Below are positions 749 through 24,185 of a DNA stretch of 24,825 nucleotides, piece after piece. This DNA is from a virus. Position 1 is the stretch's first letter; each line of letters opens with the position of its first letter. The notes under the pieces were generated by a model, which was given only the letters and a program-made list of their open reading frames with translations, ran no database searches and had not been told where the DNA came from. The DNA lies in IMG/VR virus record IMGVR_UViG_3300033146_000877, positions 1 to 24,825 of that record; one strand, written 5' to 3'. The translations under genes were made by a program, and so were the position numbers.

Positions 749-3700
749 CTACTCAATTGCCGTTTGTATTATACCATTGATAATCCATAAGGGCTGATAC
801 CCTACGAATCCTGTGAGAGAAGCCATCTTTAGCATCCCTTTAATTCCCTGCTTCATTGCTGCTGCTCCTCTCGGAGATTCCATCCCATAAGAGAGAGCAA
901 TCACTAAACTTTTCCCAGTCCATAGCATCGTATTGATAACGTCTATTATGGGATTAGGCATTCCAAGGTCAACACCGGCTTCTCCTCTTATGTAGCGATA
1001 GATATCAGGAACAACATCCTTGATTCCAAAGAAGTAGCCTGTAGAAGCCCGAAGTAGATAGTTCTCAAGGAAGAGCTGCCAGAATGGATCATCATCGTCT
1101 TCTCCTCCCTCTATCCAATTAAAGAACTTCCCTCGGCCTACGTCCAGTAAGCCGGATAGCATAGGCATTGCTATGTAGAGTGATGCCAGAGTCTTCACAT
1201 AGGCCAGTGTAGCCCCTTTCTCTCCTCTCTTCATGGCATGTAAGGTCCTTGATTGCAAGTCGTTCATGGCCTGTACAAAACTTCCAAACATTGTGAGGAA
1301 CTTAAACTTGGGCTCTGACTGCAGCTCGCTCCTGAACTGGGTGTCTGTCTGTGGCTGAGTATTTCTCTGAGTCATCTCAGCATACTCCAAGGCTACTTGC
1401 TTGCGCATATTCACATCGCTTCTTAGAAACTCTATCGCTCTATCGTCTATATCCATGAGATTCTTTATCTCTTCTTTGAAGTAACCCCTCTCTACATTGT
1501 CTAAGAACTCATTGAAGGCAGCATACATACCAATCCTGATAGTATGCTTATCTACATTCCTCGTCATCCATGTATTCATCTTGTGCCAACGTGACTGCCC
1601 GGTAGTGAAGTCTCTTCCCCCATAGATTTGATCAAGATAAGCAAGAGCATCCTGCCCACCTCTCTTAGCTCTATTCCGGTAGTAAGAATTATCGTTGAGA
1701 ATCATGTCGATCTTCTTAGGATTTATGGTTGCATCGAAGATAGCCCGTACAATATGTGGTGCTCCTGTGTAAATATTCGTCCAGATACTGAATGACTGCA
1801 TCATGGCAATGAACCCATTTCCAAAGACAATGCCTTGTGTGAAGGTCTTGGCTGCCCTAGCAATGAACTTGTCCATGTTTGTCATGGCCTCGTAGTTCCC
1901 ACCCCATCGTTTGAGCCCTTTAAGCAGCAGATTGTAGTAGTCTTCAGAGATGTGGCCTCGTATAGCATTGGCTACTGCTCCAGAGGTCAATACAGCATTC
2001 GCTCTGATCAGTTCTTTCTGCATAAAGTAGAACTTAGATGCGTTATGTGAGGCATATCTAAGATAGTTTCCCATAGAAGTGATCTTTACAGGCGCATTGG
2101 TCTTCTTTTTCTCTCGTATCATCCCAACAGCAAAGGTAGAAAGTATGTTGTTCTCTACATTATTGCTCTCTCTCATCAGCTCTGTACCAACAGCAGAGTA
2201 TTCTGTGGTGTGGAACAATGGGATATAGAAGTTATTACGGGGCAACTCCTTGCCATAGATGTCTACATATCGTTCATTCGCCAGGTAGTAGAGCTTATCC
2301 ATGTAGTTCTGGAATGCTTTGAGGACTGTTTCATCCTGTTCAGTGAGCCGATAACCATCAACCATCTCTATCAATTGGTTCTTTTCTTGATTGGTGAACT
2401 TCCTTGATCTATGAATGCCGTCATCAAAGAACAAAGTGTTCTCTTTAATCTTAGCCCAGTTATCCGCAACCCTTCTGTTCTGTTTCATGGTCAAAAGAAA
2501 CTCTTTGGTCACATTAAACTTCCCAATCTTTCCCACGACCTCACTGAAGTACGCTTTCTTGTCCGCTATACGGGCATTCTCCATATCCTGAGCGTAAGCA
2601 GTATCTATTTCATTAACGTAAGCATCAGCCAGCTGCTGCCCTCTGTGTGGGTCACTGAAGAGGAGCTTGTAAACAAGGGAACCACGCCCTGATATCTTCT
2701 CAACCAATAGATTATACCCATGAGCCATGTCAAAGAGATCTTTAAGGTCTCTGAAGCGCTCTCTCTGTGTGTCTGGGTCAGCAACAGCAGAGTTTTTCTT
2801 TATATCATCGGCTACAAGCCGTGCTAAGTCCCGATATCCAAGGTCAGTCTCGTCTTCTAGTTGCATAGAGAGCATCGCTGCATCCCTTTTGGCTACTTCA
2901 AGCACCAACTTGTAGTAGTTAGAGAGTTCTTTGAAGGAGAGCTTGTTCAACTTATCGAGTTCGATGTCGTAGCGGAGGCTCTTGTATGTATCAGGGTCAA
3001 TCCCTCCAGTAGCCCGGAGGTTAGGGTCAGTGTAAAGCCCGGCAAGAGCAGAGATCCTTATAATTTCTTCTCTATTTTCAATGAGGTTGATCGAATCATA
3101 GAGTCTCATCAGCATGCTTATCATTTCACCAGAGGACTCATTGACAGCCTTCTGATACATACGGGCTTCTTCCAGTACATTCCCTACACGGGCAGCCTGG
3201 GCATCCTGCACGCTCTTTATCTGAGCTATCTTGGTGTTCTGCCTTGTAATGTTGTGCTGATAGACTTTCTTCTTTATCAGCCGTTGCTTCTTCCCAAGGG
3301 TAGCTTCACTGGTGAGAGTAGCCGTGATGTCTGCCTGATTCTTAATAGACTGGAGAACGTCACTCATGATATCTACAAAGGAATAGAGAGAGTTCTTATT
3401 CAGCTTCGCATCACTCCTATAGTTGAAGTCAAGGAAGTTAAAGATCATCTGGTCTTTGAGTTTAGATACATCCTTCATGTTGATCTTGCTGAACTCAAGT
3501 GTGTTGTAAGCCATGTTCATCAGCTCAGCAAGCATCTCTCTATAAGGAGCGACTGCGTTATGCTCGGCCCCCTTACGTTGCAGCTCACTTATCTTGGTAT
3601 AGATCTCATTCCACATCACCATCACTTGAGAGAGATGAGTATTAACGGCTTCTGTTCTGATTCTTCTCCAATGGTTCTTCCTTACTCGGATGTTCTTGGT

Positions 3701-6700
3701 TCCTGATTCTACCCTGGCGCCACTCTCATCGTACTCATAAGTAGTCTCTTGGATATTATCAGGGCCTTCTATCTTGTTCTGGATGTCCAGTAGCCGGTCC
3801 CTGAGCTTCACTGAGTCCTGAGAGAGAGTAGAGAGTGATTCTATGTATTGAAGTACGTCAGCTCTATCCTCTGGTGCCAACTCATAATCAAAGAGCATTT
3901 CATTAACAAGCTCTTCTTCTCTTATCCGTATTGATTTGAGTTTGTCAGTGAAGATATCGTTGAATCTCTTTGCTATGGCGTTGTACCTATCAAGAGTCTG
4001 ATTGATCTGCTGTATATGCTCATCACCTTCAAAGACAAAAGCATCATTCTTTATGATTCCCAGCTGCCTAGTGAGCCGCATGATTTCTTCAGCCTCAGAT
4101 GCACTCAGCCTTCCTGCTACATTCTGTGTCTGTCCTCTCATGATACGTTCAGCATTTATCACACCACGCTTGAGGTCATGCCAGTCCTTATAGAGGGGAA
4201 GAACTGTATCACTCTTGGTGACATATCCCCTCTTCTTTTTCTTTGATACCTGGATCTTCTTGGAAGGGATCAAGTCTGTCTGTTTGCTATAGTCAGCCTC
4301 ATCTCCAAAAATAACCGGATCATACTCAACGCCATAAAGCTCTAACCTCTTCTGATATGCTTCAATGAGGGTCCTATAGTGAGCCATGTCTATCGGGGGA
4401 GTGAGCCCGGAGTCTATGGCTTTCTGGTTAGTAGCTACAGCCTCCTGCATCTTAGCTACAAGGGCTTCATACTCAGCGGTATAAGGGTTGTCTCTGGAAA
4501 GACTCTTAGCTATCTTCTCTGCTTCCTCTATCGGAAGTTCTTTTTGGAAGCTCAAGGTCCCGGCTTCTTTGTCATATCCATAAGTTGCAGCAAAGGTATC
4601 AAGGTACATCTTCTTGATCTTATATCTCTCTGCCATATTCTCTGTTGCTTCTATGTCTTGCATCATCTTCTCGAATGAAGCGATTGCATCCTTGTCCAGA
4701 TTATCTTTAATATCCTTGAGGAACTGCTTGAGAGGAGCTATATCCTCTTTGATCGCTTGATGCTTCTCATACAGGCTTTGGTATAAAGGAGCCTTGACGA
4801 TAGTGTGAGCAGTAGGAGTAGCCGTTTTCTTCTTGTACTCAACTACATAGCTTTGAGGAGAGCTGAACTCAAGATCCCCCCACTGTATCCCAGAGAGAGC
4901 ATGGTATAGTTCTCGATAATCATCATAGAGCTTATCAGTTCTCTTCTGTACTTCCTCGTCAGAGAGTGGTGAGTAGGCAAGAGAAGACAGGTCATAACGA
5001 ATCTTATCCAGTTTATCAATCTCTGCTTCTACATTTGTTTCAGACAGGATAGCTCGTGATGTGATGATGGCCCTGGCCTTATCCCATTCATCAGTAAGTT
5101 TCTGGTAGACCCCCTCAGCGTTCTCTCTCGCATCATCTGAAGTCTTATATACTTCTGGCAGCTTATCAGGGGTAGCTCTCTCCTTAACCCTGGTTGGGAT
5201 GCCATTCTTGGCATCTTCCAATGTCCGTAAGAAAGCAATGTTTTTAGATTCTTTCTTATCAATAGAAAACAGTTTCTTCTTGGAGATATCCAGGATCTTT
5301 TTGTCTTCTTCTCTAATCTCTTCATGGTTGAAGAAAGGAGAAGAGGACTCAAGGTTCACAATGTCAGGGACTCTCCCCCCTATGGCGCCCATAATGTCAG
5401 AGATCGTATTCAACAAGGCTTGATGCTTGGATAGATCGAAGGGAACCTGATTGAACCTGAAGGCCATCTCATCATTAACGCTCTTGTACTTAATCCCTGA
5501 TGCCTCAACCTGGCTGTAGATGCCAAGCATTTCATTGATAAGATTGTTTATCTGTGTCTCGGCTTCCAGCCTTCTATCTAAGTATTCCTTGCTCTTATTG
5601 TTCATAAGAGAGTGTTCACCCTGGGTAAGCTCAATCTCGTTAAGAGACGATTTTAGCCTCTTAAACTCTTTTGCTATTCCTTCCATCTGGACGTATGAAG
5701 TAGTGATTGTTTCTGAGTCTGGAACGTTCTTATTGAGGTTATAGCGCTCTACGTTGACTATTCTATCCATCATCTTAGAGAGCCGTTCATCAATATCACC
5801 AGCTTCAGATACTTCTATTGCCTTGTTTAACGCCTCTTTTTCCTTCGCTTCCAGTTCTCCCATCTTGCTGGAATCAAGGCTGTAAGCAATCAGATCTTCT
5901 ACTGATTTGAAGTGAGCCACAGCATCGTTATAGGCTTGTCTGTAGTCAGCTCGGTCTCCTCCGGCTGCCTTGGCTCCATTGAGAACATCGTAGTACTTCC
6001 TTGTCCCATCAGAGGAATAGAAGAACTTGTTCTTTGTCATCAGCTTCTTTCTAATCTTAGAGAACTGATTCGTTGTAATGACACCATGCTGTTTGTAGTA
6101 GTCAGCTAAGTTGAGGATGGCCTTGTAATGATCTGAGTAAGCCGATCTCACAATATTGGAGTTGTACTTAGGAACAGTGAATGGAGCCAGCTCAGGACGG
6201 GTATAGAACTCAAGCGCCTTGATAGCAACATTATCATAGACGTCTCTTATCGGAGTACCCTCTACTGTCTTCTCCCTAATCTGTCTCTCTACTTCTATGT
6301 TGTTCTCTTTCGTGATCTCCGCATAGAACATCTCGTTGAACTTGGCGTGGAAGGAGAGAGCAATGAGATTATTCACAAGAGGATCATTCGACTTGGCTGC
6401 CTCAAGAGTATAGTCTCTCACAAGGTTCTCAAGCTCTTCGGTGAAAGCAACAATCTCCAACACTCTGGCTTTCTCTATGTCCCTGGAGATCATATCAATG
6501 TATGTCAGAGCAGCAGCCTTATCTTCATTGTCTATCCGATGAAGCTGCATGTAAGTGTCGAACTCATTGAGTAAGCTCTTCCGTTCATCAACAGTATCTT
6601 TAATCTCTTTGTTCTCATAACGGCCCCATAACACATCAAGGTCACGGAACATGGCTACTTCTTTCACCATTGAATCAATGAATGATCTGATCGTATCAAG

Positions 6701-9700
6701 AGCAATAGACTCCAGTTCTTTGTCTTCATAAAGATTATCTAATTGGTATATGAGCCCTCTGGCTACTTCTAAGGCTCTATTGCTCAGTAAGCCCGCATTG
6801 TAAACACGGTTGGCATAGGTGGCTAAGTAGCCCTGTGACAGCTCCCCACTCATCGTACCCTTTATCTGTGCTAAGATTTCTTCTGCTATATCAGCAGCTT
6901 TCTTTCTCTCAAAGAATACTCTCTTGTCAAATGGACTGTTGTGTTTAACAGCAAAGTCTTTCTTCTCGCTGATTGTTTCAGGGGTTACAGTCTCAGCATG
7001 TTCCTGCATCATTGTAGTCCCAAGTCCGATTACTTCAGCTACCTGCTCTGTGTATTTAGCTGCTCTTCCTTCTGGATCTAATGAATCAATATCTAATGAT
7101 TGGATCATAGAGAGAAGGGAAGTGTACTGGCTCTTATCAAATAGTCCTGCTTGGAATGCTCCATCAATAGAAGTCACCGATTGCATCCAATAACCAAGAG
7201 CATCCTTCTCCGCTTCCGTGTAGGTATCACTCAGCTTACTCTTGTAATACTTCCCTACTTTCTTTGCGAAGGTTCTAAGCTCTCCTTTGAGCCTCTTCAT
7301 CACGGCTTCTTTATCATGCCCATCAGCAATGAGTTGTTCAAACTTACTGATCTCAGTAGCCATTTTGTTCTTAGCTCTGTTTGTTATGTTGGCCTTGAGT
7401 ATTCTTTTCTCATCAAGTTTTGTGTACTTCGGAGCCTCAAGGATTCCTAGCTGCTCAATGTAAGCAATGGGGTCTATGTGCTGCGTATCGACAATAGAGA
7501 GATCTTCTTCATAGTCCAGGTCTTTATAGTCACCGTCATCTTCAAGTGTGTCCTGTCTATCCACTAACTCATCTAATGTTGGCAGCCCTTCTTCTCTAAC
7601 CTCTAATGCTTTCTTCCTGGCCTCAAGTCTTTCTATTCGTTCGGCTTCTATGTTAGAGAGCAGCAGCTCTTCTTTCCTTTCCTTGGCCTCGTCATAAAGC
7701 CTCAGCTCTATCTTGTCTCTGTTCTCTATGATGGGAGGTACGCTTCCTATAACGTTGTTGTAGAGGTTCGTGACTTGATCAAGGATGATATTGATATCTG
7801 AAAGATCGTGGACTGGATATCCTGTATTGTGCCTGTATGCAGTGTTGATATCTTCCAGCTTGTTAGCCAGAGTAGTGGTCTCTGCATAGTAGCCCATCAG
7901 CTTACGGGCTAACTCCAGGGCATCCTCATGAATCTCTTCAATCATAAAAGGATACTCAAACCATCCCTCTACATAATTCACTTGATCTGCAACACTCATG
8001 CCAGGAGCCCAATTGTTATCAATAATATGCTTGGCGTCTCTTGCGTCAGTGATGAGGAGTTCAAGGGTAGCAATGCCCTGTTTTAATAGTTCCTTATCCT
8101 TATCAAAGGTATCTTTAAGAGAAGCAAAGGAAGAAGAGATTGCTTTAGGCCAAGGTTTCTTCTCTATCACTGCTGACTCTTTAGTCTTGGTTGTCGGGTT
8201 CAGCTCTGTGAGTAAATCTTTTACAGGGATAGCAAGGGTTGAAGGAGACTGTCCGGCTACATGAGTCATATAGTTAGCCCCGGCAATACTAATAGTATCT
8301 TCAATCAACTTTGCTATATCACTGGCTGAAATCTCCCTTTCACCAAAGTATTTCCTAGTCAGCCCATTCAGTTCATGCCGATATCTATTTGCATTGGAGG
8401 CTACATCTTTATAGTAGTCGCTTGAATCTACTGTCCGTCTCTTCTCATGGAGCCTGAAGAGATCATTGAGTACTGTCTCGTTGTAAAGAATGAATGCTGT
8501 GTTGGATCGAGTAGCAGCCTTGTAGTCGCCTGTGAGATTCGCTGTAGTCCTTACACTATCAATCTCATCACTGGCAATCGCATTGATCCTATTGTCTAAC
8601 TCAGAGAGAAGGTCTTCAAATGGGAAAGCATTGAATCCTTCCAGCTTGCCATGACGGATACTAGAGAGCCGTCTCCTATAAGCTGTCTCTCTCTTTGTTA
8701 AGACTTCATCTCTCAAAGATACATACCGATCAAGCAGCTGCATCCTCTTATCACGGGCTACTTCATTAAAAGATTGGATGTCGATGTTGTTGATCTCATT
8801 GATATACTTGCGGAGCCTTGCCATATATTCAATGGCCCCCTGAAGAGCAACATCAATAGATAGCAGCTCATCAACAAATGTTTTATGAGAGAGCTTGTCT
8901 TCTTCATGCGTCTTGAAGGTGTTGGTATCCTTCTCTACAAGATCAATCGCTGCGATCTCTCTCTCAATCAACTTGTTTACTCTCCGCTCATAGTCCTGAA
9001 AAGCAGCAAGAGTTTTCTCTTGTTCTTTAGAAAGGTTAGAACGGTTCTGCCCAACAATACCATCAACTTCTTTTCTTCTTGTGCTGAGTTTGTTCTTATA
9101 GGTCTCAATCTTTATACGAATCTCATTGAGATATTCATTACGCTCAACTGCATCCCGGCTATCTACAAACGCATCACTTGTATTCTCATTCTCTCCAGTA
9201 AAGAGTTTTGATTTCTCTTCTGTGTACTCTCCACTCTTGTATCGCTCAAGTTCACTGCGCATCTTCACAAAGTTCTCAAGCTCGATGATGGCTCTCGTTA
9301 CTTCAGTACTCATATCATCAGAGATTGTTGGATCTTTCAGTATGGTATAGAAGTCATTGAACAAATCATCAATAACAATATCATCTTCACTCTTTGCCAA
9401 TGATTCATCTACCGGAACAGGAGGGTAGAACCTTTCCCCTGTATATACTTGTACATCTTCTGGCCTGAGTTGCGTTGAGTCTGAATACTGGTGTCGTGCT
9501 TTGTACTGTATCGTCCTGAGCTTCTTATATAGCCCATCACTCTCTGTCTTATTAGTAGCCAGCTTCTTCTGTAGCTCTTCTATTACTGTGATTGCTTTGT
9601 TGTGTTCCTCTATATCCTTAGTAGAGATGGTCTCTCTCTTCTTTCTCTTGAACTTCATTAAAGTATCAAAGGCTTGCTTCTCTACCGGAGTCATTACAAT

Positions 9701-11719
9701 AGCAGACTCTTCGGCAAGGTTGATCTTCAGCAGCTTGGTAGCTATATCGGCTACTTCAACATTGTCTAAACCAGATGCCTTAATGTTTACTATCTGTAGT
9801 GAGCCGTCTTCATTAGCCTTATAGCTGTACTGAGCAGATCCATCCTCTGTCTTAGCCTCAATCAGAATAGTCGAATTGTTATCATCTGATGTGACCTTGA
9901 CTTCGGCTCCCTTAACAGAAGAATCAAGAGCTTCATTCTTATCTAATGCGACATAGGAGAACTCCCCATCAATCCTTAGTTCGGGGACCATAGCAGCCAG
10001 CATCCCTTCTGCTCTGACAACCCTGGCTTCTCTCTCTTTGGTATTAACAATTATCATTTCAGATGCAGCTTCCAGCTCTGAGATGGTATAGCCTGTCCTT
10101 CTGAAGAAGTAGGAGCTCATCTCTGCATCTTTCTTGTTACGGTTCATGAACTCGGTAAGCACAGTTATCTGCCCTGGGCTCAGATACCCTGCCATCTTAG
10201 GGCTCTTCATAAGAACATCAGCAAGGATAGCTCCATGTTTATTCACATCTTCATTACTGATATTCTTTGGAGTGAATACTCTATCTGTATTGTTAGGATC
10301 AACAAAGATTCCAGCCATATCAGGCAGATCGTTAAGAGTCTGCCTCTCTTCTCTATTTAAGGGAGTCCTCTTATCTGTTATATCTTGCCATACTCTCTTG
10401 CCCAGCTTAGTGGAAAGAAGCATAGGCCCTGACTGCCCTAGAACTCCCCATGCTGTATCCTCTGCTATGTGAGCCATCTCTTTGAGCCGACCTCTCCAGT
10501 TGGAAGCAGAGAGGATAGAGTCTAAGTGAGTAACAAACTTCCTCGCCATTGACTCATCACCCTGTGCATCAGGGTTGCTGGTCAGTTCATTTGCTGTATC
10601 ATTGATTACCCAATTAACAAGCTGTTGTGCTTCTTCTGTGCCTATCTCAAAGAACTCTTCTTTTGCTAGTGAGCCACCTAGTTCCATCAAGAGCTTGGCA
10701 TATGTCTTCTTCCCTAAAGGATTCTTGAGGATAGAGAGAATAGAGTCCTTAACATCTTTCTCTGCCCCCGTATTCACATCAATCATTTCCAACACTGAAG
10801 TAAATGCACCGCTGATGCGTGAAAGCTCCTGCATGTTCTCTTCACTCATGGGGTACTGGCTTTCCTGATTCATCATATACAGCTCAAAGAAAGTAGAAGC
10901 TGCTTCTTGTTTGTATATCTGTTCTCCTAGTGAATATGTGAATGCTGCTTCTCCTGCCTTCACTGCAAATGGAGCGGTTGCTACTGCTGCTGTCGGCCCT
11001 GTAGCCAATGCCCCTACTCCACCAGCTGGAAGCCCTACTGCAAGGCCAAGGCCCGTTCCAGCTAACTCAGTGGCTGCTGCTGCGGTAACTCCATCAAGGG
11101 CTGCTTTAATCATTTGAGGCGTGTTGATGCCGTACTGCTGTTTGATTACATCCATCTTCTCCATGAAGTACTTACGGGTAGGGCCAACAGGCAAGGCATC
11201 TATGACAGTCTGAGGATCAACGTATTGTGATTTCATCTGAGTTAAACGCTGCGTGAAACTTGGAGTTCTCTCTCCAGCTCTGAAGGCTTCTTCCATCTTA
11301 GAGATATCATTCTGGAGATCCCTCATTTTCTTGAGGGTGTATTTGATATCGTTGATCTTATTAGGGTTGGCGGGCATGTTGGGGTAGAGATGAGAAACAA
11401 CACCAGCAAAGTGCTGATAGGCATATGTAGTACCTGTTCCACTGATAGCTCCTATGAACTCAGAGGCTTCTATCTTCTCTAGAGGGAGCCGGAGTGACTT
11501 GTCTCCTATGTCACCACTTAGGTTAGCAAAACCCATGATGGCCCCTTGAGCCTCATTCATGCGGGTGTCTATTTCTGGGTCTCCCTCATATGCGTCAGTA
11601 ACACTTGTTGAAGGAATGATTCCCTGGACAGTCACATTGTTAATATCTATCGGAGCATCCTGTACCCCAAGGATATTATCAGGCTGAACCTCTACTGGAA
11701 GCTGCTGTGTATCACTCAT
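749..11719 (-). CDS. Giant internal virion (ejection) protein, 3656 aa, gp16 position
   Basis: A single uninterrupted frame of 3656 residues, roughly 0.4 MDa, sits between the gp15-like protein and the fibre, where T7 has gp16 (1318 aa). It is probably packaged in the head and injected with the DNA. Visible parts: an N-terminal soluble region; an Ala/Gly-rich hydrophobic stretch near residues 213-256 (GLGLAVGLPAGGVGALA); an FFEIGTEEAQ segment near 350; a very long, highly charged, helix-rich middle (about 600-2950); and a C-terminal region with a PRNNFYIPLF motif near 3155-3170 and hydrophobic helices near 3290-3320, 3500-3525 and 3600-3640. This resembles the C-terminal regions of phage large polyvalent or ejection proteins. 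I see no lysozyme or transglycosylase motif and no T7/N4-type RNA polymerase motifs. Start ATG 11719 follows the previous stop by one base; its ribosome site (AGGTAG) is weak, so coupling is likely. The role is inferred from position and architecture. Confidence 0.75.
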   Translation of the reverse strand: MSDTQQLPVEVQPDNILGVQDAPIDINNVTVQGIIPSTSVTDAYEGDPEIDTRMNEAQGAIMGFANLSGDIGDKSLRLPLEKIEASEFIGAISGTGTTYAYQHFAGVVSHLYPNMPANPNKINDIKYTLKKMRDLQNDISKMEEAFRAGERTPSFTQRLTQMKSQYVDPQTVIDALPVGPTRKYFMEKMDVIKQQYGINTPQMIKAALDGVTAAAATELAGTGLGLAVGLPAGGVGALATGPTAAVATAPFAVKAGEAAFTYSLGEQIYKQEAASTFFELYMMNQESQYPMSEENMQELSRISGAFTSVLEMIDVNTGAEKDVKDSILSILKNPLGKKTYAKLLMELGGSLAKEEFFEIGTEEAQQLVNWVINDTANELTSNPDAQGDESMARKFVTHLDSILSASNWRGRLKEMAHIAEDTAWGVLGQSGPMLLSTKLGKRVWQDITDKRTPLNREERQTLNDLPDMAGIFVDPNNTDRVFTPKNISNEDVNKHGAILADVLMKSPKMAGYLSPGQITVLTEFMNRNKKDAEMSSYFFRRTGYTISELEAASEMIIVNTKEREARVVRAEGMLAAMVPELRIDGEFSYVALDKNEALDSSVKGAEVKVTSDDNNSTILIEAKTEDGSAQYSYKANEDGSLQIVNIKASGLDNVEVADIATKLLKINLAEESAIVMTPVEKQAFDTLMKFKRKKRETISTKDIEEHNKAITVIEELQKKLATNKTESDGLYKKLRTIQYKARHQYSDSTQLRPEDVQVYTGERFYPPVPVDESLAKSEDDIVIDDLFNDFYTILKDPTISDDMSTEVTRAIIELENFVKMRSELERYKSGEYTEEKSKLFTGENENTSDAFVDSRDAVERNEYLNEIRIKIETYKNKLSTRRKEVDGIVGQNRSNLSKEQEKTLAAFQDYERRVNKLIEREIAAIDLVEKDTNTFKTHEEDKLSHKTFVDELLSIDVALQGAIEYMARLRKYINEINNIDIQSFNEVARDKRMQLLDRYVSLRDEVLTKRETAYRRRLSSIRHGKLEGFNAFPFEDLLSELDNRINAIASDEIDSVRTTANLTGDYKAATRSNTAFILYNETVLNDLFRLHEKRRTVDSSDYYKDVASNANRYRHELNGLTRKYFGEREISASDIAKLIEDTISIAGANYMTHVAGQSPSTLAIPVKDLLTELNPTTKTKESAVIEKKPWPKAISSSFASLKDTFDKDKELLKQGIATLELLITDARDAKHIIDNNWAPGMSVADQVNYVEGWFEYPFMIEEIHEDALELARKLMGYYAETTTLANKLEDINTAYRHNTGYPVHDLSDINIILDQVTNLYNNVIGSVPPIIENRDKIELRLYDEAKERKEELLLSNIEAERIERLEARKKALEVREEGLPTLDELVDRQDTLEDDGDYKDLDYEEDLSIVDTQHIDPIAYIEQLGILEAPKYTKLDEKRILKANITNRAKNKMATEISKFEQLIADGHDKEAVMKRLKGELRTFAKKVGKYYKSKLSDTYTEAEKDALGYWMQSVTSIDGAFQAGLFDKSQYTSLLSMIQSLDIDSLDPEGRAAKYTEQVAEVIGLGTTMMQEHAETVTPETISEKKDFAVKHNSPFDKRVFFERKKAADIAEEILAQIKGTMSGELSQGYLATYANRVYNAGLLSNRALEVARGLIYQLDNLYEDKELESIALDTIRSFIDSMVKEVAMFRDLDVLWGRYENKEIKDTVDERKSLLNEFDTYMQLHRIDNEDKAAALTYIDMISRDIEKARVLEIVAFTEELENLVRDYTLEAAKSNDPLVNNLIALSFHAKFNEMFYAEITKENNIEVERQIREKTVEGTPIRDVYDNVAIKALEFYTRPELAPFTVPKYNSNIVRSAYSDHYKAILNLADYYKQHGVITTNQFSKIRKKLMTKNKFFYSSDGTRKYYDVLNGAKAAGGDRADYRQAYNDAVAHFKSVEDLIAYSLDSSKMGELEAKEKEALNKAIEVSEAGDIDERLSKMMDRIVNVERYNLNKNVPDSETITTSYVQMEGIAKEFKRLKSSLNEIELTQGEHSLMNNKSKEYLDRRLEAETQINNLINEMLGIYSQVEASGIKYKSVNDEMAFRFNQVPFDLSKHQALLNTISDIMGAIGGRVPDIVNLESSSPFFNHEEIREEDKKILDISKKKLFSIDKKESKNIAFLRTLEDAKNGIPTRVKERATPDKLPEVYKTSDDARENAEGVYQKLTDEWDKARAIITSRAILSETNVEAEIDKLDKIRYDLSSLAYSPLSDEEVQKRTDKLYDDYRELYHALSGIQWGDLEFSSPQSYVVEYKKKTATPTAHTIVKAPLYQSLYEKHQAIKEDIAPLKQFLKDIKDNLDKDAIASFEKMMQDIEATENMAERYKIKKMYLDTFAATYGYDKEAGTLSFQKELPIEEAEKIAKSLSRDNPYTAEYEALVAKMQEAVATNQKAIDSGLTPPIDMAHYRTLIEAYQKRLELYGVEYDPVIFGDEADYSKQTDLIPSKKIQVSKKKKRGYVTKSDTVLPLYKDWHDLKRGVINAERIMRGQTQNVAGRLSASEAEEIMRLTRQLGIIKNDAFVFEGDEHIQQINQTLDRYNAIAKRFNDIFTDKLKSIRIREEELVNEMLFDYELAPEDRADVLQYIESLSTLSQDSVKLRDRLLDIQNKIEGPDNIQETTYEYDESGARVESGTKNIRVRKNHWRRIRTEAVNTHLSQVMVMWNEIYTKISELQRKGAEHNAVAPYREMLAELMNMAYNTLEFSKINMKDVSKLKDQMIFNFLDFNYRSDAKLNKNSLYSFVDIMSDVLQSIKNQADITATLTSEATLGKKQRLIKKKVYQHNITRQNTKIAQIKSVQDAQAARVGNVLEEARMYQKAVNESSGEMISMLMRLYDSINLIENREEIIRISALAGLYTDPNLRATGGIDPDTYKSLRYDIELDKLNKLSFKELSNYYKLVLEVAKRDAAMLSMQLEDETDLGYRDLARLVADDIKKNSAVADPDTQRERFRDLKDLFDMAHGYNLLVEKISGRGSLVYKLLFSDPHRGQQLADAYVNEIDTAYAQDMENARIADKKAYFSEVVGKIGKFNVTKEFLLTMKQNRRVADNWAKIKENTLFFDDGIHRSRKFTNQEKNQLIEMVDGYRLTEQDETVLKAFQNYMDKLYYLANERYVDIYGKELPRNNFYIPLFHTTEYSAVGTELMRESNNVENNILSTFAVGMIREKKKTNAPVKITSMGNYLRYASHNASKFYFMQKELIRANAVLTSGAVANAIRGHISEDYYNLLLKGLKRWGGNYEAMTNMDKFIARAAKTFTQGIVFGNGFIAMMQSFSIWTNIYTGAPHIVRAIFDATINPKKIDMILNDNSYYRNRAKRGGQDALAYLDQIYGGRDFTTGQSRWHKMNTWMTRNVDKHTIRIGMYAAFNEFLDNVERGYFKEEIKNLMDIDDRAIEFLRSDVNMRKQVALEYAEMTQRNTQPQTDTQFRSELQSEPKFKFLTMFGSFVQAMNDLQSRTLHAMKRGEKGATLAYVKTLASLYIAMPMLSGLLDVGRGKFFNWIEGGEDDDDPFWQLFLENYLLRASTGYFFGIKDVVPDIYRYIRGEAGVDLGMPNPIIDVINTMLWTGKSLVIALSYGMESPRGAAAMKQGIKGMLKMASLTGFVGYQPLWIINGIIQTAIE

Positions 11720-18392: not shown

Positions 18393-19350
18393 TTAAGCCA
18401 CGATCGGTTCGTTATTAACAATGAGGTCAGACCGTTTGAGGGGGATACCCCTGAAGAAAGTCTGTCTGACTCCACCAGCATCAGTAGCATAGACATTGGG
18501 AACAGTCTGATCGTATGCGAGGATATCGAATACGTTGAACATGTCCTCATTCATGTACGCTACGAGGTTACCTTCTTTGCCCCGGTTGGGAGAATGGTTG
18601 ATAGCACGAATCATCATCTCGAAGAGAGGCTTGAGGTTAGTCATGCTCTCATTGGGATTGATGTTACATATCCTGCTGAGTCCACGGGGATACCTTACGG
18701 TAAGACCAAGGTCAAAGATAGGCCCCGGCGTTGTTCGGATCAGGTACGATCTGAAGGCCAAAGTCTTCTTTGTCGATACCAATCTTGGAACCTTTCGGAT
18801 AGAGCATATGAGTGTAGTCGCTGCCCCAAGTTGTCAGATAAATGCTGGTGTTACTGGTAGAAGTAGCTCCACCCATGTCATAGACCCCTTCAAGCCCAAG
18901 GGCATTACGCCGAGTAGCCATGCCATCAAAGGCTCCAGGAGTTACTGTCTTATCCCCATAAAAGAGGTAAGAGGAAGCTGTCTCAGAGAGACCTTTAAGA
19001 TGTGCGATGTCTTCATCAGATCTAACCTGCTGTTTGTTCCCATTGGGAGCGAGCCGGATAAGTCTGTCATCTACCATACTCATATCTTCGATGAAACCGA
19101 TATAATCGATTTCCTGACCCACCTTAGAGAGTGTAGGTGTTACACCACGGTTGATCTGCCGGAGAGTTCCAGAAGGCTGTGACTCTCGAACGGTAGATAC
19201 GTGAGAAGCAGTCCTATTAGACTCTACCCACTGAGCATCCTGCATAGCTTCATCATGTTCTGCGATGACTTCTGCGATGCGATAAAGCATCGAGCCTTCG
19301 CCGTCCATCCGCTTTGCAAGATCGACAATTGACATTACATTCCATGCCAT
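18393..19350 (-). CDS. Major capsid protein, two frames joined by a +1 frameshift (about 318 aa)
   Basis: The first frame (19350-18712, 212 codons) begins MAWNVMSIVDLAKRM and has features of podovirus BPP-1/T7-group capsids: WVESN, then LRQINRGV, LFYGD, NTSIYLTTWG and PKGSKIGIDKEDFGL. It ends at a TGA (18714-18712). The C-terminal part, starting DLGLTVRYPRG, continues one base further on in the +1 frame (read 18711 to 18396, stop TAA 18395-18393). Joining at CTT TGA C gives 212 + 106 = 318 residues, a normal length. Without the shift the product lacks the C-terminal third. The join is at a prfB-like site (see 18711-18729). The start is one base after the scaffold stop with only a weak ribosome site (GGAATG), so coupling is likely; ATG 19335 is an alternative. 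A sequencing error or a small deletion could also explain the split. Confidence 0.8.
18711..18729 (-). other. prfB-like +1 frameshift site in capsid gene
   Basis: Sense-strand bases are GCC GGG GCC TAT CTT TGA C. CTT TGA C preceded by TAT is identical to the core of the E. coli prfB +1 frameshift site, where tRNA-Leu on CUU slips onto UUU while UGA waits for RF2. A GGGG run (18726-18723) lies five bases before CTT. In prfB the stimulating Shine-Dalgarno-like G-run (AGGGGG) is three bases before CTT, so the stimulator here is shorter and two bases further away. After slippage the read is Y L D L G L T V R. Confidence 0.55.
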
Positions 19351-20351: not shown

Positions 20352-21979
20352 GCTTCTCCTCGTGCCATCGGGCTATTAGGTTCAATCTGTTTACCACCAT
20401 ACTTCAACAGCATCTCTTCTCTCTTAAGATTGTTCTCCTGCTGCTGCTGGGCCATGATAGCTTCATTGCGTTGTTCTCTTCTCTGGTCTCTATCTGATTC
20501 ACTACGCAGTATATTAAAAGGTATAGAAGAAGATTCGCCGAGTACCTGCGTCACCTTGTCAAAGTCAAAGTTATCAATGACTGAGTTATCAAACTGGGCA
20601 TAGGAGAGAGAAGTATTGATTGGTGAAAGGATTCTCTTCTGAATCTGTGCGTTCTTCTGGGCTACTGCAAGAGGCCCGATGAAGGTCACATCAAGATCTT
20701 TGTCCATGATCTCTTTGGGAGGTTCAGGTAGCTTGCCTTGCTTCGCCAGTATCTTGAGAGTTTCTCTTGTGATAATCTCCAAGAAGCTATTCATTGAAGT
20801 GATCATTGGAGAGAGCATAGCAGCCTTCTCTTGCATGATCTCTGTTACCTCTATAGTAGTACGCCGGGTTGTGGAAGAGACAAGAGAGAGAAAGAAGTCT
20901 GTGAAGAAGTGCTGGTTGACCAACTGAGAGTATCTATTCACTGCGTCTATAGCAGCCGGGTAATCAATCCTGTTGCTCACAGGAAAGATTAGCCTTTCAG
21001 GTGAGCGATAGAATGATCTACCACCTGGTCCCAAGTGATAGTCGTCTCTCATTTCTTTCGGGATATTCATGGGAGGATCAGCAGCTTTCTGCTCTGCCTC
21101 TAATCTGGTACGGGCTGATTGGTTGAGAACGTAAACATCCGGCATTGCTTTGGCAGCTGGAGAGAAGCCGTAGGCCAGTCTCCCCTGAGTTGACCATCGC
21201 CATGTTGCAACAGGGAAACTCATGAATCCATCCTGCCTCATGATCCTCTTGTCCACTGGATGGAGATGATAGCCAGCCCAAGGCATCTTCTTTGCAAATG
21301 GATTACCCGGAGCGTAGAGAGCGTTAGGCATCACCACATATTGAATCTTATACAATTCAAAAGGGTTGCTCTGTATCTTCTCAAAGAGTTCTTCACCAAG
21401 CTCAGGACGGGTGTAGAGAGTCATAAGCTGGTGGGCCTCATACTCCCACTCAGTTCCAAACTGATTCACAATATTATATCCATCAACCCCAAGCGAATAG
21501 TCACCAGGATGCCAGAACCTATAACGTATGCCATCCAGAGTTCTCGGCTCCTCTACAGAAACTGAAGCAGTACCAATCGACATAATAGAGTTGAAGACAG
21601 GGATAAGTTCCCTGTACAGATCATACTTCTCAAATGTTCTCATCAATAAAATATTGACGTTAGTCTCCCAGTCTCTTACTAATGGAGACTTGCTCATCCC
21701 ATCTCCCATCGAAACAGAGACAGACACCCATTCATCGGCAGGGTTACAGGCATAGCCATACATCCCAGAAGAAGCCATGCCCGCTGCTATCCTTGCCGAA
21801 CCGTCATAGACTGAATCACCTATGAGATCCTTGGGGTTCCATATCTTATTGCCGGTAGTGAAGTCCATAAACTCAGGAGTAACGAACCTGGCACACTCAT
21901 ACCACAACGGCTCCCAGCGTTTCCTCTCATCATAGTTATGGTTGTAAACTCTCCTCACTCTCTCATATAGCGTATCCAT
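20348..21979 (-). CDS. Portal (head-to-tail connector) protein (543 aa)
   Basis: At 543 residues it matches T7 gp8 (536). Characteristic parts are an N-terminal helix ending RWEPLWYECARFVTP, then DSVYDGSARIAAGMASSGMYG and WVSVSV, a CNPADEW turn, and a C-terminal Gln-rich coiled region (EAIMAQQQQENNLKREEMLLKYGG). The dodecameric portal is the DNA gate of the head and the terminase docking site. ATG 21979 has GGAGG six bases upstream and overlaps the terL stop by one base (TAATG). Confidence 0.9.
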   Translation of the reverse strand: MDTLYERVRRVYNHNYDERKRWEPLWYECARFVTPEFMDFTTGNKIWNPKDLIGDSVYDGSARIAAGMASSGMYGYACNPADEWVSVSVSMGDGMSKSPLVRDWETNVNILLMRTFEKYDLYRELIPVFNSIMSIGTASVSVEEPRTLDGIRYRFWHPGDYSLGVDGYNIVNQFGTEWEYEAHQLMTLYTRPELGEELFEKIQSNPFELYKIQYVVMPNALYAPGNPFAKKMPWAGYHLHPVDKRIMRQDGFMSFPVATWRWSTQGRLAYGFSPAAKAMPDVYVLNQSARTRLEAEQKAADPPMNIPKEMRDDYHLGPGGRSFYRSPERLIFPVSNRIDYPAAIDAVNRYSQLVNQHFFTDFFLSLVSSTTRRTTIEVTEIMQEKAAMLSPMITSMNSFLEIITRETLKILAKQGKLPEPPKEIMDKDLDVTFIGPLAVAQKNAQIQKRILSPINTSLSYAQFDNSVIDNFDFDKVTQVLGESSSIPFNILRSESDRDQRREQRNEAIMAQQQQENNLKREEMLLKYGGKQIEPNSPMARGEA

Positions 21980-23301
21980 TACTGTCCTCCTAAATGGCGA
22001 CGGAGAAGATCTACCTTCTCATCCCTACTCTCAGTATACACATCATTGCCGCCAATATCTTTCATATACATTATCCCATAGCGGGCTGCATCGTAAGCGT
22101 GGTCTTCAGTATTGGTATCTACATCCTCTGTCTTCTTCTTATCAGCAGTGAGAGTGGGGATGGTTCTGATGAAGTTCTTTGCCGTATTGAAAGATATCAG
22201 CATTGGTCCTCCATCCATCATATTGGTCTTCAAGTAGTCATGGAATCTATAGCAGCCGTTGATCCTGTCATTGATTCCTTTGTGCATAATAAAGTACTCA
22301 GAAAAAATATTGGCTACTGATTCTTCACTAAAGCCCTGATTGGCCCAGATAGCCGGGTCTGCCACCATATCCTCTACTCCAAAGAATGAAGCCATGTTGT
22401 GAGCCTGTTTTGCTACATCACTGGCTTGCTCTCTGGAACCCTCATTAGCCTTCTCTCCTCCATACATCTCATGGAAGAGAACCATCCTCCCCTCATTGGT
22501 CACAGCCCAGAAGAGAATAGCGTAGGGCTTGGCATACCCCCAGTCCATGGAAGCGAAACGATACCATGATGGGTCCATTGGAAAAGGATCTACAACATGC
22601 CTGTCCTGATCCCATTCCTCAAAGACCTGACCGGCAAAGATATCCCAGTCCCCTAATCGAAATGCCTTGTAGAGATGGGGAGGTAAGAGCTTCATGCGTT
22701 TTGCATAGTCTGTCTCCATAAGCCGAGGATTGTCCTCAAGACGGGCAGGGATGAACATACGACCATTCCCATCCTCATCGTAGTAAATCCTGTTCGGCTC
22801 CTTCCCCGTAATGAATCTCTCTTTTATCCACCACGCTCCAACACCACCAGGATTCCCCGTAGCCCTGATATATGCCGGTACTCCCTCAACAGACCGAAGG
22901 TTGGAAAGCATAAAGAGATATGGATATGAAGTGGGATAGTTCCCAAGCTCATCAAAATATATATTGGTTAAAGAAAATCCTTGATACTTTTCAACATCAT
23001 CATCCCTCTCCAAAAACCTCATGCTCAATGTCGCTCCGTTCTTGAACGTCCAGGTCTTATCCCCTACTCTCCACTTGGCCCGGCCCCTATACATCTCCTT
23101 CGATATCTTAATCGCCTCCTCCAACTCCTTGTAAGAACGACGAAACAACATCCCTTGGGCAAACCTCCCATGGGCCTGTGCCACTCCCGCAAAGTCCATC
23201 AAACATGCAAATGTCTTTCCACCCCCACGAGCTCCGCCATAAAACATTTCAAACACATCACTCTGTATAAACAACTCCTGCTTCTCTGTCGGCCTTATCA
23301 T
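21979..23301 (-). CDS. terL: Terminase large subunit (440 aa)
   Basis: The packaging motor ATPase-nuclease. Numbered from ATG 23301: Walker A GARGGGKT at 23-30, Walker B IYFDE at 114-118 with catalytic E118, coupling motif ATGNPG near 147-152, and RNase H-like nuclease acidic residues D253 (FASMDWGY), D315 (MVADPA) and D404 (HAYDAARY). All expected motifs are present. The start is chosen because GGAGG (23310-23306) is four bases upstream of ATG 23301; ATG 23304 is only one base away, and the frame extends to a TTG at 23322 that has no ribosome site. It is the first gene of the leftward operon, next to the control region; in T7 the terminase gene (19) is at the opposite end, so gene order differs here. 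No small terminase subunit is recognised in this window. Confidence 0.95.
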   Translation of the reverse strand: MIRPTEKQELFIQSDVFEMFYGGARGGGKTFACLMDFAGVAQAHGRFAQGMLFRRSYKELEEAIKISKEMYRGRAKWRVGDKTWTFKNGATLSMRFLERDDDVEKYQGFSLTNIYFDELGNYPTSYPYLFMLSNLRSVEGVPAYIRATGNPGGVGAWWIKERFITGKEPNRIYYDEDGNGRMFIPARLEDNPRLMETDYAKRMKLLPPHLYKAFRLGDWDIFAGQVFEEWDQDRHVVDPFPMDPSWYRFASMDWGYAKPYAILFWAVTNEGRMVLFHEMYGGEKANEGSREQASDVAKQAHNMASFFGVEDMVADPAIWANQGFSEESVANIFSEYFIMHKGINDRINGCYRFHDYLKTNMMDGGPMLISFNTAKNFIRTIPTLTADKKKTEDVDTNTEDHAYDAARYGIMYMKDIGGNDVYTESRDEKVDLLRRHLGGQ

Positions 23302-23305
23302 CATT

Positions 23306-23330
23306 CCTCCAATAATAAACAAACTAGCAT
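23306..23330 (-). repeat. terL leader segment, copy 1 of a direct repeat
   Basis: Plus-strand bases CCTCC then AATAATAAAC-AAACTAGCAT. Read leftward this ends in the GGAGG ribosome site of terL. A near-copy lies at 23414-23442. Confidence 0.6.
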
Positions 23331-23354
23331 AAAATATTCACCATCCCCCATTTG

Positions 23355-23403
23355 GTATAAACCCCGTAAAACGGATGCCTAAGTGCCTTTAAGCACACTT
23401 AGA
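23355..23403. repeat. Control-region repeat unit A (near terL)
   Basis: The pattern is GTATAAACCCCGT, nine variable bases, GCCTAAGTG, eleven variable bases, ACTTAGA. All three fixed blocks and both spacings are identical in unit B 179 bases to the right, while the spacers differ completely. Read leftward it ends in CGGGGTTTATAC, which could place a transcription start about 45 bases before the terL ATG; read rightward TATAAA could be a -10. Orientation is undecided. Confidence 0.8.
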
Positions 23404-23413
23404 TTTCCTCTAG

Positions 23414-23442
23414 CCTCCGGCAATAATGAACTAAACTAGCAT
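23414..23442 (-). repeat. Orphan copy 2 of the terL leader segment
   Basis: Plus-strand CCTCC, GGC, then AATAATGAAC-T-AAACTAGCAT. Compared with copy 1 there is one substitution and one inserted base in the 20-base core, plus three inserted bases next to CCTCC. Read leftward it presents GGAGG but no start codon follows, so it looks like a relic of a duplicated terL leader. Confidence 0.55.
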
Positions 23443-23494
23443 TATCCTGTCTTTCTGCTGCTTTCAGCCTCTCTCTAAGTATAACGCATCTACT

Positions 23495-23518
23495 CTAAGT
23501 CCCCTAGAACCTACTTAG
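23495..23518. promoter_or_regulatory. Third CTAAGT-N12-ACTTAG dyad (operator candidate)
   Basis: CTAAGT (23495-23500), twelve bases, ACTTAG (23513-23518), extended by T and A outside. The 12-base spacer is the same as in the dyads inside units A (23379-23402) and B (23558-23581), but here the TATAAACCCCGT block is absent. An extra half-site CTAAGT lies 20 bases upstream at 23475. This spacing fits a dimeric DNA-binding protein touching two half-sites 18 bases centre to centre. Confidence 0.6.
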
Positions 23519-23533
23519 ATCAATAGCCTTCAA

Positions 23534-23582
23534 GTATAAACCCCGTGTTTTAAGAGCCTAAGTGGCCTGGAGAATACTTAGA
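23534..23582. repeat. Control-region repeat unit B
   Basis: This is the second copy of the pattern GTATAAACCCCGT-N9-GCCTAAGTG-N11-ACTTAGA in the same orientation as unit A. The spacers (GTTTTAAGA and GCCTGGAGAAT) share nothing obvious with those of unit A, which indicates that the fixed blocks are selected binding sites rather than a recent copy. Confidence 0.8.
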
Positions 23583-23684
23583 GCCCTTTTATTCGGGGGT
23601 TAAGTATATATGTTGTTCCCTATACAAGTTAGCCGATGGGTCATTGGGGTTGGTCTAAGTGTGTTGTAGCGGTGTTTTATCGTA

Positions 23685-23717
23685 CCGTTGTTGGTTGGCT
23701 CGGTGAGCCAACAACGG
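23685..23717 (+). promoter_or_regulatory. Strong hairpin upstream of the 146-aa gene
   Basis: Left arm CCGTTG-TTGG-TTGGCTC, loop GGT, right arm GAGCCAA-CAACGG: thirteen base pairs with a four-base TTGG bulge. TCTAAG (23654-23659) and CTTAGA (23718-23723) flank it and could close a larger stem. There is no T-run, so it is not a standard terminator. It ends 14 bases before the AGGAGG of the next gene, so it could affect translation start or mRNA stability. Confidence 0.6.
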
Positions 23718-23744
23718 CTTAGAACATACTTAGGAGGTCATCAA

Positions 23745-24185
23745 ATGGAGATGACAAAAGATCAATTAACGGTTAAGGATTATGCGGATTTCAAGGCAGA
23801 CTTCGAGTCTATGGAGCAGCAGTACTGGGATGATAGATGGGATGCGAGCTACTGGAAGCCACTGGCTGGCTTGTCGATGAGAGAGCATGGACTCTCTCCT
23901 TCTATCCTCTCGACCTTCTTAACCGCACTTAGAGAGGATTATGCAGGGTTCTCTGAAGCTTGTGGGGCCTTTGCCTGGTCTTCTCATCTCATCTCTTCTT
24001 TCGCCTATGAGGTAACGGAAGAGGGGCGGGCTGTTGAGAAGCAGTCGGTTGCTTTCTTGGATAGAGTGAGAGATACCGGGTCTCTCAGGAGTCCTAAGGA
24101 CGTTGTGAGGGTATGGATTGCGTTGCGGGCATATATAGAGTATCCCAAGTTACAGCAATTGGTAGCTGAAGGCATAGACTGGTAG
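23745..24185 (+). CDS. Unknown protein, first rightward gene (146 aa)
   Basis: I do not recognise this protein. The start ATG 23745 is chosen for AGGAGG (23732-23737) seven bases upstream; a longer frame from TTG 23688 would run through the hairpin and has no ribosome site. The 146 residues begin MEMTKDQLTVKDYADFKADF and include an aromatic stretch (YWDDRWDASYWKPLAGLSM) and a basic helix near 110-120 (SPKDVVRVWIALRAYIEYPK). It looks soluble, acidic and helical with no membrane segment. An ACTTAG half-site (23728-23733) overlaps its ribosome site, so the protein or site that recognises CTAAGT may control it. A terminator follows nine bases after the stop, so it is probably transcribed alone. 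Confidence 0.75.
   Translation: MEMTKDQLTVKDYADFKADFESMEQQYWDDRWDASYWKPLAGLSMREHGLSPSILSTFLTALREDYAGFSEACGAFAWSSHLISSFAYEVTEEGRAVEKQSVAFLDRVRDTGSLRSPKDVVRVWIALRAYIEYPKLQQLVAEGIDW

Follow-up and report, generated by a model that had tools for sequence, protein, structure and literature searches.

The window analyzed here comprises the whole of a virus record, IMGVR_UViG_3300033146_000877, and is 24,825 bases long. Leftward genes run contiguously from position 3 to 23304, with a largest gap of ~63 bp in the table of open reading frames, and this table together with family matches identifies the terminase large subunit, portal, capsid, and tail proteins among their products. The portal is similar to those of epsilon15-like and other podoviruses. 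These genes make up a structural operon of at least 23 kb, in which the terminase gene comes first. A rightward gene lies on its other side, and the two blocks are separated by positions 23305 to 23744 (440–446 bp), the sole long non-coding stretch in the window. Since the leftward genes are contiguous and the right-hand gene is divergent, both transcripts should start within this stretch. Judging from the layout, it would be the only place able to serve both flanking units without an unseen intragenic start.

Two further features of these gene blocks can be recorded. In the leftward block, a 3656-aa reading frame (749–11719) has no Pfam match and probably encodes a giant internal virion protein. 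The leader of the rightward gene contains, directly before its ribosome-binding site, a strong 12-bp hairpin (23685–23717; −21.4 kcal/mol, z −4.8) with no T run.

The features of the intergenic region and its flanks are as follows.

21979–23304, minus strand: gene for the terminase large subunit, which opens the leftward structural operon
23305–23404, no strand: copy 1 of a duplicated module, the 5′ leader of the terminase gene, with GGAGG, together with unit A (local alignment)
23355–23403, minus strand: unit A, dyad A plus N12-CGGGGTTTATAC, reading towards the terminase
23355–23367, minus strand: ACGGGGTTTATAC block of unit A, a putative promoter core with TATACC as its −10-like element
23379–23402, no strand: dyad A, CTAAGT-N12-ACTTAG, proposed operator
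23416–23520, no strand: copy 2 of the module, a decayed leader copy plus dyad C (local alignment)
23475–23480, plus strand: single half-site CTAAGT
23495–23518, no strand: dyad C, CTAAGT-N12-ACTTAG, the third putative operator, flanked by no CGGGG box
23534–23582, minus strand: unit B, dyad B plus N12-CGGGGTTTATAC
23534–23546, minus strand: ACGGGGTTTATAC block of unit B, a putative promoter core with TATACT (5/6 to the −10 consensus)
23558–23581, no strand: dyad B, CTAAGT-N12-ACTTAG, putative operator flanked on each side by a CGGGG box
23576–23601, plus strand: ACTTAG-N12-CGGGG-N-TT facing the rightward genes, the mirror-image half of unit B
23655–23660, plus strand: single half-site CTAAGT
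23728–23733, minus strand: single half-site ACTTAG that overlaps the rightward gene's ribosome-binding site
23745–24185, plus strand: first rightward gene, 146 aa, without an assigned function; weak homologues occur at the same place in two relatives (L003 and L005)

The region carries nine CTAAGT/ACTTAG half-sites in its 440–446 bp; the commonest 6-mer in shuffles averaged 3.4 copies and never exceeded 7. Six of the nine are arranged as three dyads of the form CTAAGT-N12-ACTTAG, while each of 2000 shuffles had at most one such dyad. Inverted repeats of this kind might act in RNA, as stems in the leaders that serve processing or termination. Dyad A folds well in the minus-strand RNA (−10.3 kcal/mol, z −4.2), clearly better than shuffles, and was flagged as terminator-like. 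However, folding on either strand gives dyads B and C little if any advantage over shuffles (z 0.09 to −1.26), the bases that flank the arms show no pair-keeping co-variation, and neither the fixed N12 nor the CGGGG box that lies farther out would be explained. We give RNA hairpins very little credence as an account of the dyads.

A non-coding stretch full of short repeats, in which the GC skew changes sign, could also be a replication origin with initiator-binding repeats. This is very improbable, as the skew change here coincides with a change of coding strand, the region (GC 0.42) has no strongly A+T-rich unwinding stretch, and the window is devoid of a replication gene.

A second element stands at a fixed distance from the dyads. 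Within the 24.8-kb window, the pattern ACTTAG-N12-CGGGG-N-TT is matched exactly three times, twice on the minus strand (in units A and B) and once on the plus strand (at dyad B), always in the intergenic region. When the half-sites were kept fixed and the rest was shuffled 100,000 times, a single such box turned up 21 times and more than one never, although this test was devised post hoc, after the match had been seen, and carries less weight than the figure suggests.

Units A and B had been picked out in a preliminary description of the window as two long spaced repeats, and their positions are confirmed here. The blocks GTATAAACCCCGT, GCCTAAGTG, and ACTTAGA are identical in both (29 bases), as are the spacer lengths of 9 and 11. 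Overall, the units agree at 34 of 49 positions, which is the best 49-base self-match within the 446-bp intergenic region; in 2000 dinucleotide shuffles of the region, the best match averaged 25.4 and was at most 31. The accompanying statement that the spacers diverge throughout, at 20 of 20 bases, is correct for spacer 1 (9 of 9 positions) but not for spacer 2, where 5 of 11 are identical, so that 15 bases diverge.

The region also retains a trace of its history. Positions 23305–23404 are collinear with 23416–23520, and the leader parts alone score 35, as against 30 or less in 2000 shuffles. The match shows that an old tandem duplication of the terminase-proximal module gave rise to part of the array. 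The preliminary description, from which this duplication, dyad C, the nine half-sites, and the plus-strand box at 23576–23601 were all missing, had argued for selected protein contacts and against a recent duplication. This is a false choice. The fixed spacing, the three dyads, and the mirrored third box do have the look of contacts, but duplication partly made the array. After the duplication, selection would have kept the contact blocks, and it is because of this selection that the blocks would have outlived the spacers.

Repeats that adjoin the large terminase gene might instead form a packaging recognition site like cosB. Such a site is defined by repeats that are bound by the small terminase subunit and lie between the cohesive end and the terS gene. 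Repeated protein sites, putative in the present case, adjoin terminase genes both here and in lambda-type cosB, and the mixed orientation of the repeated sites resembles that of the R sequences of lambda cosB (PMC9026076). In contrast to the R sequences and small terminase gene of lambda-type cosB, the present region has symmetric dyads, no small terminase gene beside them (nor a reading frame for one between the repeats and the terminase), and no known cohesive end. Moreover, R sites do not feature dyads or mirror-symmetric CGGGG boxes, and the region would still need its divergent promoters. A packaging role is quite improbable.

With respect to those promoters, a standard scan of positions 23280–23760 for sigma70 sites (a TTGACA-16/18-TATAAT-like pair with at least 9 of 12 matches) returned none, with 1.0 expected by chance, in agreement with the earlier statement that no ordinary sigma70 promoter is visible for either divergent transcript. 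A relaxed scan returned one 9/12 site with 15-bp spacing, and TATACT directly 3′ of CGGGGTT in the minus-strand reading of unit B. T7-type promoter sets are recognized by one conserved ~20-bp sequence before several genes together with a phage RNA polymerase gene; ACGGGGTTTATAC is found twice in the window, and both copies are in this intergenic region.

The same blocks can be read on the plus strand, with GTATAAA as the −10 element of rightward promoters in tandem, which would be blocked by repressors bound to operators, the dyads, immediately downstream. TATAAA matches TATAAT at 5 of 6 positions and is preceded by TGG in unit A, and the order GTATAAA-CCCCGT-dyad would place the operator at ~+10 to +35. 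However, no conserved or recognizable −35 lies upstream of either TATAAA, unit A adjoins the terminase at a distance of 380 bp from the rightward gene, and the CGGGG box is mirrored on the far side of dyad B without a TATAAA. We consider rightward promoters under repression unlikely.

The reading that we prefer, with a probability of about 0.5, is that of a shared control region for two divergent units, in which the operators of a phage regulator drive activator-dependent promoters leftward and perhaps rightward as well. The region fits a familiar class, namely divergent phage control regions with repeated operators, as three dyads of the same spacing lie between the divergent genes that begin at 23304 (minus strand) and 23745 (plus strand).

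From the arrangement of the blocks, we infer regulator binding, activation, strand of action, and start sites as follows. A dimeric, probably phage-encoded regulator would bind CTAAGT-N12-ACTTAG at all three operators. In units A and B, this operator would lie upstream of the leftward promoter core ACGGGGTTTATAC, with TATACC (A) or TATACT (B) as a −10-like element. If leftward transcription starts ~7 bp past these hexamers, the operator centre would fall ~41–44 bp before the start, where it overlaps the place of the missing −35 and takes the position of an activator that touches RNA polymerase. An operator at approximately −41 to −44, together with the lack of a good −35, thus has the geometry of such an activator. 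For example, lambda CI at OR2 touches polymerase at PRM, as an activator centred near −42. Operator B, with its mirror-image CGGGG box on the other side, may also serve the rightward gene. Counting against this reading are the mirror box, which lacks a TATACY at the same distance, and dyad C, which has no CGGGG box.

A regulator gene was not found. The first rightward protein yielded no relatives in a direct search and no PHROG or Pfam family match, and its model was poor (pLDDT 58.5), with no significant fold match. Likewise, no Pfam match to an Ogr/Delta zinc-finger gene was obtained among ten early proteins, one from the window and the rest from L003 and L005.

A close parallel in form is with P2-type late promoters, where a dyad TGT-N12-ACA upstream of late operons is bound by Ogr; in the P2-like phage Smp131, one divergent pair of structural operons is under such promoters (PMC3931495). 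Both systems place a 12-bp-spaced inverted repeat at structural operons. However, the letters differ, as the arms here are CTAAGT/ACTTAG, with an inner AGT-N12-ACT in all three dyads, and an additional CGGGG box lies 12 bp outside the dyad. As no Ogr gene was seen either in this genome fragment, which has few rightward genes, the array is not assigned to that type. Switch regions of the lambda OR and TP901-1 type likewise have several operators between two divergent transcription units. Unlike those temperate phage switches, with their CI/Cro-type gene, the present region has no such gene adjacent and is flanked by an operon starting with terminase and by a gene of unassigned function.

Scans of IMG/VR with the terminase, capsid, and portal, and of a genome collection with the capsid, identified only four close relatives (L003, L005, L006/L026, and L028), with capsid identities of 79–84%. 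The region is present in two of the four, L003 and L005 (terminase identity of 64% and 71%, respectively), and the divergent layout is kept in both. The first rightward gene of L003 is related to that of L005 (E 6e-15), and both are weakly related to that of the window (1e-5 and 0.002 in single comparisons). Neither intergenic region contains CTAAGT dyads or a full block. Instead, each has direct repeats of its own in the same intergenic place: L003 has two copies of TTCTGACGATTTATATATAA, and L005 a 31-base repeat with TATCTAGGT. The sequence TATAAACC occurs once in both, with the opposite orientation in L005. We regard the position of the control region as conserved and its sites as not conserved. 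The expectation that the spaced pattern would recur in relatives accordingly fails in the two closest ones that have the region. The related suggestion of a phage-specific promoter or activator site is favored by the fixed spacing, the dyads, and the divergent flanks, and weakened by the absence of the blocks from these same relatives.

Wider searches gave a similar picture. Exact and relaxed forms of the spaced pattern had no matches in IMG/VR, comparison of the intergenic DNA with phage records by blastn gave no match, and Rfam gave no meaningful match. A single IMG/VR match to dyad-N12-CGGGG, in an unrelated 50-kb contig (L032), was judged to be due to chance, as 17 fixed bases should match a few times in so large a collection. 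The 10-mer GGTATAAACC, common to the window and L005 in opposite orientations, shows no excess over chance, with an estimated ~0.6 shared 10-mers expected.

A bolder and fairly unlikely extension of the shared control region envisages a phage transcription factor, as yet undescribed, that uses the mirror-symmetric composite CCCCG-N12-CTAAGT-N12-ACTTAG-N12-CGGGG (elements spaced by ~18 bp) as its binding platform and fires both divergent operons, with each lineage having swapped in its own sites at the same place. For the preferred reading of a shared control region, the value would lie in locating precisely, and in testable form, the switch of a little-known podovirus lineage. It would also show that such control regions hold their position while binding sites are replaced between relatives, and the duplicated module offers a possible route for that replacement.

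Several minor observations concern the window and its relatives. The capsid gene of the window (18393–19350) is broken into two frames, while it reads through in L003, L005, and L026 (327–329 codons); ~8 residues present there are absent from the window, and the frame is broken by a short deletion or an assembly error. The closest relative contig in the genome collection, L029, was assigned by binning to a Thermotogae MAG (QNAR01000082.1), a weak hint as to the host. In a capsid search of 103 genomes of that MAG's phylum, only this MAG matched and the other 102 did not. In L003, positions 5460–5650 (minus strand) are a long non-coding stretch with a structured look and no Rfam match. The intergenic region of L005 has nested inverted repeats at 3348–3440 (minus strand), GGTGTATTGT...ACAATACACC and GGTATA...TATACC, that are possibly its own control hub. 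Finally, an HNH endonuclease with a NUMOD4-like part is encoded among the rightward genes of L005 (896–1417).
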